A stretch of DNA of 64,000 nt, taken from Salinisphaeraceae bacterium (GTDB lineage Bacteria > Pseudomonadota > Gammaproteobacteria > Nevskiales > Salinisphaeraceae). A program made the position numbers and the translations under genes. Position 1 is the stretch's first letter. Every line of letters begins with the position of its first letter. The notes below the pieces were generated by a model that had not been told where the DNA came from, made no database searches, and worked only from the letters and a program-made list of their open reading frames with translations. The stretch is from the NCBI GenBank assembly GCA_002683405.1, contig NYTH01000043.1, positions 1-64,000 on the forward strand, in the 5' to 3' direction. Below are positions 30,466 through 32,730 of the stretch, in pieces.

Positions 30466-32730
30466 TTACCTGATCTCCGTGATGAAGGTGTCATAGCCGG
30501 CCTTGCGCATGGCGAGCGCGATATCGCTGGTGCGGTTTTCCCGGGCGATGGCAATCATGGCGCCGCCGCCGCCGCCGCCGGTCAGCTTGGCACCCAGTGC
30601 GCCGTTTTCGCGGGCGATCTGCACCAGCTCCTCGATCTCCCAGCTCGATACCTGCAGCGCGTTGAGCAGGCCGTGATCGATGTTCATCAGCTCGCCCAGC
30701 TCCTCGATCCGCCCGGCCTGCATGGCGTCGATGCCGGCCAGCGCGAGTTCATCGATCTGCGTGAATATTCTCTCGTAGCGCTCGGGGCTGGCTTCCCACG
30801 CCCTGCGCACGTTGCTGACCGTCTTGGCGGTGAGTGTACGCACCCCGGACAGCCCGATCACCACCGGTATCGGCTCGGGGGCGTGAATCTCGCGAATATC
30901 CGGCGCCTGACTGTCTTCGCCCTTGCGAAACACGATGGGTCGGCCGAACGTGGCCAGGGTGTTGTCGATACCCGAAGGCGTGCCGTGAGCAATCTTCTCG
31001 CATTCGTAGGCAATGCGGCAGATTTCGTCGTTTGACGGGGACAGGCCGCAGCACTCGGCGACCGCCCGCGTGACCGCCACGGCCAGCGCCGCCGAGGCGC
31101 CCAGGCCGACGGCGCGCGGCACGTGGGGGAAAACCTCCACGCGCAGCCGGTCGCCGGACACGCCAAGTTCGCGGAAGATCAGGTTGAGCGACTGGTGCAG
31201 GGCATTGTCCGACTGCTGCGGCTCGTGCAGCGCCATTTCCACGCCCCAGCGCGGGATGATCAACCGCGAGCCATCCGCCGTTTTCACGGCTTCGGCGCGA
31301 ATGTTCAGCGGGATCGGCGCGGCGATGGCGTGCCGGCCATACACCACCGAATGCTCGCCCAGCAGAATGATCTTGCCGTAGCCGAAACTGCCGCGCGTGT
31401 CCTCGTGGCGAACCGGGGCGGGGGCCTGGTCGGCGGCCTCGGCGTCGGCGCCGAGCTTGCCGGCGATTTCCTTGGCTCGCCAGACCTTGATATCGCCGCC
31501 CGCGATGAGCTCTTCAACGACCTGCTCGAAGCGGCTTTCCTCCACACCGGCGGCAATGGCCACGCTGCGGGCGTGCAGGCTCATGTGGCCGCGCTGGATG
31601 CCTTCGGTGGACAGGGCGCGGATGGCGGCAAAATTCTGCGCCAGGCCGACGGCGCACATTACTTCAGCCAGTTCGGCTGCCGATTCGATGCCCAGCAGCC
31701 GATGGGCGATGATCACGGCCTGGTTGGATTCCACCTGGCCGCCCACCGTGCCCACCTTGAGCGGCATCTCCAGTTCGCCTACCAGGTCGCCGTCGTCGTT
31801 CTTGAACCAGCGGGTCAACGAACTGTACTGACCGGTGCGGGCGGCGTAGGCGTGCGCCGCGGATTCGATGGCGCGCCAGTCGTTGCCGGTGGCGATAGCC
31901 ACGGCATCGATGCCGTTCATGATGCCCTTGTTGTGGGTGGCGGCGCGGTAGGGATCCGCCGCGGCGAACTCGGTGGCCAGAATGACGCCGTCCCGCACCT
32001 GCTCTCCCGAGTAGTCGCCGCTGGCCAGCACGTTCACCGGGAACGTGGCGCGCGCGCGAACCATGGCGCGATCGGTCAGGTTCGACAGGATGCGCAGAAA
32101 GACCTGGCCGTTGGTGATCTTCTCCACCAACGGCGCGACGCCTTCGCACATGGTGTTCACGAGGTTGGCGCCCATGGCGTCGCGGGTATCCACGATCAGG
32201 TGAACCACCAGCATTTCGGTGCCGGTGGCGCTGCCGTGCACGATGCGCACCTCGACATCCTTGGCGCCGCCACCACGGGCCACCATTTTTGGATGCAGAC
32301 TGTTGGCCAGATTGAGAATTTCTTCCTTCCGCTGGAGCAACTGCTGCTGCAGCTTCGCCGCGTGGCTGATCCCCACCACCTGAATCTGGCCGATCAGCAT
32401 GGGCGGCTCGGCAATGCTCTCGAAGCCGCCGGCACTGCGGGCAAGTTTGGCGATCGAGCTGACCGCGGCAATGATGGACGGCTCCTCGACCACCATGGGG
32501 ACCAGGTATTCGCGGCCGTTTACCAGGAAGTTCAGCCCCAGACCCATGGGCAGCGAGAACGCACCGATGACGTTCTCCACCAGCCGGTCGGCCTTGGCGG
32601 CGTCCAGCAGGTGCTTGCCGTCCATGAGCATGTGGTATTCGGCTTCGTTGATGACCTCGCGCTCGTACAGCACCCGCAGGCGGTTGGCCACGGAAAACTT
32701 GTAGAACTGCGGGATTCTGGAACGGCTCAT
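30466..32730 (-). CDS. HMG-CoA reductase (class II) fused to mevalonate kinase
   Basis: This 754-residue protein appears to join two successive enzymes of the mevalonate pathway. Residues 1-about 425 are a class II HMG-CoA reductase: VENVIGAFSLPMGLG (51-65), VVEEPSIIAA with catalytic Glu (80-89), DAMGANLVNT (184-193), NKGIMNGIDAV with Lys and Asp (267-277), and GHMSLHAR with the catalytic His (381-388). After a linker of about 25 residues rich in Ala, Asp and Pro, residues 447-754 are a GHMP mevalonate kinase. They show GKIILLGEHSVVYG (452-465), GLGASAALAVAV (542-553), HGTPSGIDN and the LTGGGGGGAM loop (717-726). Both active sites look intact. There is no stop, start or frameshift between them. 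Confidence 0.93.
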   Translation of the reverse strand: MSRSRIPQFYKFSVANRLRVLYEREVINEAEYHMLMDGKHLLDAAKADRLVENVIGAFSLPMGLGLNFLVNGREYLVPMVVEEPSIIAAVSSIAKLARSAGGFESIAEPPMLIGQIQVVGISHAAKLQQQLLQRKEEILNLANSLHPKMVARGGGAKDVEVRIVHGSATGTEMLVVHLIVDTRDAMGANLVNTMCEGVAPLVEKITNGQVFLRILSNLTDRAMVRARATFPVNVLASGDYSGEQVRDGVILATEFAAADPYRAATHNKGIMNGIDAVAIATGNDWRAIESAAHAYAARTGQYSSLTRWFKNDDGDLVGELEMPLKVGTVGGQVESNQAVIIAHRLLGIESAAELAEVMCAVGLAQNFAAIRALSTEGIQRGHMSLHARSVAIAAGVEESRFEQVVEELIAGGDIKVWRAKEIAGKLGADAEAADQAPAPVRHEDTRGSFGYGKIILLGEHSVVYGRHAIAAPIPLNIRAEAVKTADGSRLIIPRWGVEMALHEPQQSDNALHQSLNLIFRELGVSGDRLRVEVFPHVPRAVGLGASAALAVAVTRAVAECCGLSPSNDEICRIAYECEKIAHGTPSGIDNTLATFGRPIVFRKGEDSQAPDIREIHAPEPIPVVIGLSGVRTLTAKTVSNVRRAWEASPERYERIFTQIDELALAGIDAMQAGRIEELGELMNIDHGLLNALQVSSWEIEELVQIARENGALGAKLTGGGGGGAMIAIARENRTSDIALAMRKAGYDTFITEIR

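Follow-up and report, generated by a model that had tools for sequence, protein, structure and literature searches.

A gene joining HMG-CoA reductase to mevalonate kinase within a mevalonate-pathway operon of Salinisphaeraceae and other bacteria

Background

HMG-CoA reductase (HMGR), the target of statins in people, is usually seen as catalysing the rate-limiting step of the mevalonate pathway. The closest described fusion is MvaE of Enterococcus faecalis, likewise a bacterial mevalonate-pathway fusion with a class II HMGR, in which acetoacetyl-CoA thiolase, an earlier pathway step, lies N-terminal to the reductase (PMC10070635). The class II reductases of Pseudomonas mevalonii, Delftia and Burkholderia (1qax, 6dio, 6p7k) have no kinase part and that of Streptococcus pneumoniae (5wpj) is stand-alone, as are the mevalonate kinases (MVKs) of Leishmania major (2hfs) and Methanosarcina mazei (6mde).

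The stretch of DNA analysed here (the window; 64,000 nucleotides of contig NYTH01000043.1, assembly GCA_002683405.1, from a Salinisphaeraceae bacterium) encodes a different arrangement, in which the next enzyme downstream, MVK, is attached at the C-terminus of HMGR, after its flap domain. HMM searches of the window protein yield no thiolase domain, and its HMGR starts at residue 1, so that the distinction from MvaE drawn in the initial annotation holds. Both domains and their functions are already known; it is their pairing that differs from the known fusion. As the same annotation noted, this pairing is not known to have been characterised biochemically, and no description of an HMGR-MVK fusion was found in the open-access literature, an earlier mention in subscription literature being possible.

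Results

The gene is one uninterrupted frame on the minus strand, a point missing from the initial annotation; it starts with ATG and runs for 754 codons. An ORF check of the plus strand over these coordinates reveals no gene of this kind. Its parts are as follows.

30466..32730, minus strand: HMGR-MVK fusion gene, 754 aa (ORF, HMM matches, relatives)
31456..32730, minus strand: class II HMG-CoA reductase part, residues 1-425 (HMM, phmmer, residue mapping, fold match)
31378..31455, minus strand: inter-domain linker, residues ~426-451, predicted disordered, conserved in neither length nor sequence (alignment, AlphaFold, dN/dS)
30472..31377, minus strand: GHMP mevalonate kinase part, residues 452-753 (HMM, motifs, fold match)

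Specifically, residues 1-387 match TIGR00532 with 423 bits (cut-off 260), PF00368 covers residues 14-387, and phmmer aligns the solved class II reductases 6dio, 1qax and 6p7k up to residue 428. The reductase half furthermore carries the three-helix C-terminal flap domain of its class, and the catalytic residues E83, K267, D283 and H381 of P. mevalonii align with E83, K268, D284 and H382. In the kinase half, residues 452-727 match TIGR00549 with 241 bits (cut-off 163), PF00288 (514-594) and PF08544 (668-746) follow in the expected order, phmmer finds the solved kinases 2hfs and 6mde, and GHMP motifs 1-3 and the catalytic residues are in place (K453/GEH, GLGASAA with S546, E578, D589 and TGGGGGG from 717). 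The continuous frame, the complete reductase reaching to about residue 425 and the complete kinase claimed earlier are thereby all recovered, the kinase now being bounded at 452-753 rather than 447-754 and the linker lying at about 31378-31455, in agreement with its earlier placement near 31,400.

The catalytic residues previously recognised by eye in both halves prove invariant well beyond the window in every sequence that can be read: E83, K268, D284 and H382 across 113 fused loci, and K453, E459, S546, E578, D589, G720 and G723 across 114, these being counts of loci, a few of which share one genome. The reductase half is ~50% identical to 1qax, 6dio and 6p7k, with the same fold and catalytic residues, and ~42% identical to 5wpj; the nearest solved relatives of the kinase half, 2hfs and 6mde, share its fold at ~30% identity. 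Foldseek comparison of the predicted structure agrees, with TMt ~0.9 over 419-428 columns between the HMGR half and the P. mevalonii enzyme and TMt 0.86 between the MVK half and the M. mazei kinase, the latter half matching both 6mde and 2hfs in fold. These data support reading the gene as a genuine join of two complete, apparently catalytic enzymes for successive steps.

The fusion lies in a single same-strand run, MVD-PMK-fusion-IDI-FPPS, corresponding to the pathway from HMG-CoA to FPP, a context that the initial annotation had left out.

33821..34807, minus strand: diphosphomevalonate decarboxylase (MVD; TIGR01240, 270 bits, above cut-off)
32829..33821, minus strand: putative phosphomevalonate kinase (PMK), GHMP (best match TIGR01220, 111 bits, below its cut-off of 165.7)
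29872..30462, minus strand: type I isopentenyl-diphosphate isomerase (IDI), 3 bp downstream of the fusion (HMM)
28963..29859, minus strand: farnesyl diphosphate synthase-type polyprenyl synthase (FPPS; HMM)

Among the GTDB loci, the order MVD-PMK-fusion-IDI is kept across phyla; one Planctomycetota-labelled contig (L021) carries the rearranged order fusion-IDI-MVD-PMK. The GHMP kinase at 32829-33821 is probably the phosphomevalonate kinase. It is divergent, falling short of the cut-off in all PMK models, and the copies in relatives are just 23-45% identical to it.

Taken together, the gene very probably encodes a bifunctional, biosynthetic HMGR-MVK enzyme. The class II half would convert HMG-CoA to mevalonate with two NAD(P)H, predicted to be NADPH, and the kinase, tethered by a flexible linker of ~25 residues where the mobile flap domain of the reductase ends, would use ATP to turn mevalonate into 5-phosphomevalonate, thereby drawing the reversible reduction forward. 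The remaining steps to IPP, DMAPP and FPP would fall to the operon's PMK, MVD, IDI and FPP synthase. The presumed benefit would lie in fixed stoichiometry, co-localisation through the reductase dimer and local capture of mevalonate, rather than in a closed channel. A natural HMGR coupled to the ATP-driven reaction that follows it could serve terpenoid engineering as a component that needs no construction, and it offers a test case for whether fusing enzymes improves flux.

A further step, physical channelling of mevalonate between the reductase and kinase sites by way of a conserved arrangement of the domains, is the alternative that fares best, and it is still unlikely. The two steps are consecutive, the fusion has been retained over a long multi-phylum history, and the kinase hangs from a flap which, in other class II HMGRs, shuts over the active site upon binding of substrate and cofactor (PMC10070635). 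In the AlphaFold model, built with 47 fused sequences, the flap helices span 378-393, 398-411 and 416-429, and the kinase is attached to the third. However, the model consists of two confident domains joined by a disordered linker (429-446), with a low overall pTM of 0.54 and no confident placement of the domains relative to each other. The linker, furthermore, varies from 8 to 82 residues among the fused loci and has no conserved sequence, a pattern more in line with tethering and co-expression than with a fixed tunnel. Its dN/dS is also raised: in Salinisphaera-type pairs it ranges from 0.14 to 0.78, values that rest on few codons, against 0.03-0.12 for the HMGR half and 0-0.11 for the MVK half, and in the more divergent pair of the window and L003 the values are 0.19 (HMGR), 0.40 (MVK) and 1.3 (linker, again few codons). 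Strong purifying selection thus acts on the two enzyme halves, whereas the linker drifts. The earlier suggestion that the fusion could channel mevalonate therefore looks unlikely, since a disordered, variable and little-constrained linker argues against a conserved tunnel; from the model, we infer a flexible tether. A bolder, and doubtful, proposal is that the fused proteins form an unrecognised HMGR-MVK family of single origin spanning several phyla, in which the flap-borne kinase captures mevalonate as it is released and flap movement couples the two sites.

The biosynthetic reading of the enzyme also has to be weighed against the name of its best NCBIfam match, TIGR00532, which says 'degradative' and would have the reductase half run from mevalonate to HMG-CoA. 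The cofactor helix bears on this question. Residues 146-152 (for this helix see PMC10070635) read HPKMVAR in the window protein, and the P. mevalonii-type degradative NADH helix is absent. In the part of PMC13370337 that cites Miller and Kung, the NADH-type motif is given as Dx(V/L)xxxL and the NADPH-type motif as (H/Y)xSxxxR. The P. mevalonii, Delftia and Burkholderia enzymes carry D146 and L152 where the fusion has H146, P147 and R152, whereas the S. pneumoniae enzyme has an NADPH-type helix with Pro147 and R-GGG, sharing P147 and R152 with the fusion but bearing S at motif position 3 where the fusion has K/N. Across 113 fused sequences position 146 is H in 109, Q in 4 and D in none, P147 is kept, R152 is nearly always kept and position 148 is mostly a basic or amide residue, a pattern that predicts a preference for NADPH, perhaps with some use of NADH. 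The latter is possible because motif position 3 is K, N, R or Q in the fused enzymes, not S.

The distribution of isoprenoid routes points the same way. In a set of 100 related genomes, the fusion occurs without ispH in 36 and ispH without the fusion in 61, and none has both; the three with neither are all less than 90% complete. Since ispG is likewise missing from 9/9 fusion genomes tested (and found in 2/2 fusion-free controls), fusion genomes appear to make isoprenoids through the mevalonate pathway alone. The fusion is accordingly most likely biosynthetic, and the 'degradative' name is misleading for it. With the fusion and the MEP pathway excluding each other so strictly (36 versus 61 genomes, no overlap), the whole operon is a clear case of one pathway replacing another in a diderm lineage.

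One observation besides the name speaks for degradation and counts against the biosynthetic reading: the window's own genome, 99.1% complete, yields no HMG-CoA synthase with PF01154, PF08540 or a family member's protein as queries. Yet the synthase is found in all 35 other fusion genomes among the 100. In Salinisphaera relatives it adjoins MVD in divergent orientation, at the place where the window has a DUF6763 gene (34807-35578). The simplest reading of its absence is an assembly gap, another source of HMG-CoA being possible. As for leucine-derived HMG-CoA as a candidate substitute, a true HMG-CoA lyase is also missing from the window's genome, which gives only weak partial matches to NF004283. 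Together with the attachment of HMGR to MVK in an operon with PMK, MVD, IDI and FPPS, the lack of MEP markers in fusion genomes and the absence of D146/L152, these points leave degradative operation highly improbable. In Salinisphaera, NF004283 matches do exceed the cut-off; in the one such genome inspected (L166), the lyase-type gene adjoins an apparent CoA-transferase gene and no leucine-degradation operon was seen. Methylcrotonyl-CoA carboxylase was not found in the lyase regions of two relatives.

The idea that two neighbouring genes were united in one frame through an error of sequencing or assembly has practically no chance of being right, as no point was found in its favour and the identical frame recurs in 16/16 other family members, one of them a single-contig genome, and in unrelated assemblies from many phyla. 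The frameshift or misassembly at the linker that the initial annotation had named as its own possible undoing is hence ruled out by the many relatives sharing the single frame with no internal stop.

The database tally proposed at the same time reveals a wide spread over bacterial phyla. Within the window's family the full-length fusion is present in 17/17 genomes, the 16 copies other than the window's being 59-75% identical to it. A scan of GTDB genomes finds HMGR and MVK in one ORF at 67/79 best loci, a fraction biased upward since these loci are the best matches of the scan. The labels of the fused loci include Salinisphaera, Nevskia, Dyella, Rhodanobacter, Wenzhouxiangella and marine gammaproteobacteria, and also Calditrichota, KSB1, Acidobacteriota, Balneolota, Ignavibacteriota, Kapaibacterium and Cloacimonadota. 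Less biased samples give 7 full-length fusions and one contig-truncated copy in 276 gammaproteobacterial genomes, and 3/198 in the phylum of an Acidobacteria-labelled genome. In the phylum of a Calditrichota-labelled genome, 38/40 genomes have a match, full length in 32 and partial in the other 6, mostly at contig ends. The fusion is thus old, conserved and multi-phylum rather than a local oddity, which had escaped the initial annotation.

The two halves were also placed in separate trees. In the HMGR-half tree one branch, with support 98, separates all fused sequences from the unfused ones; the MVK-half tree has the same split with a weak support of 69, its unfused rows being few and long-branched. 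One pair of genomes, with the labels Myxococcales and Lujinxingiaceae (L081/L139 and L087/L140), supplies the closest unfused genes for both halves, which fits one fusion event. A single fusion therefore appears well supported for the reductase half and weakly supported for the kinase half, with the proviso that fission products within the fused clade could be missed by the scan because full-length matches rank first. The sequences are consistent with wide transfer of the MVD-PMK-[HMGR-MVK]-IDI operon after that event.

In two contigs labelled Microbacteriaceae/Cryobacterium (L035, L064) the fusion is accompanied by a divergent HMG-CoA synthase as in Salinisphaera, and the HMGR and MVK trees both place these contigs with the window's family, which reflects either gene transfer or a binning error. 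A deep-branching fused clade is formed by gammaproteobacterial genomes (L067, L075, L100) and has short linkers, of 8 residues in L075 and 13 in L067.
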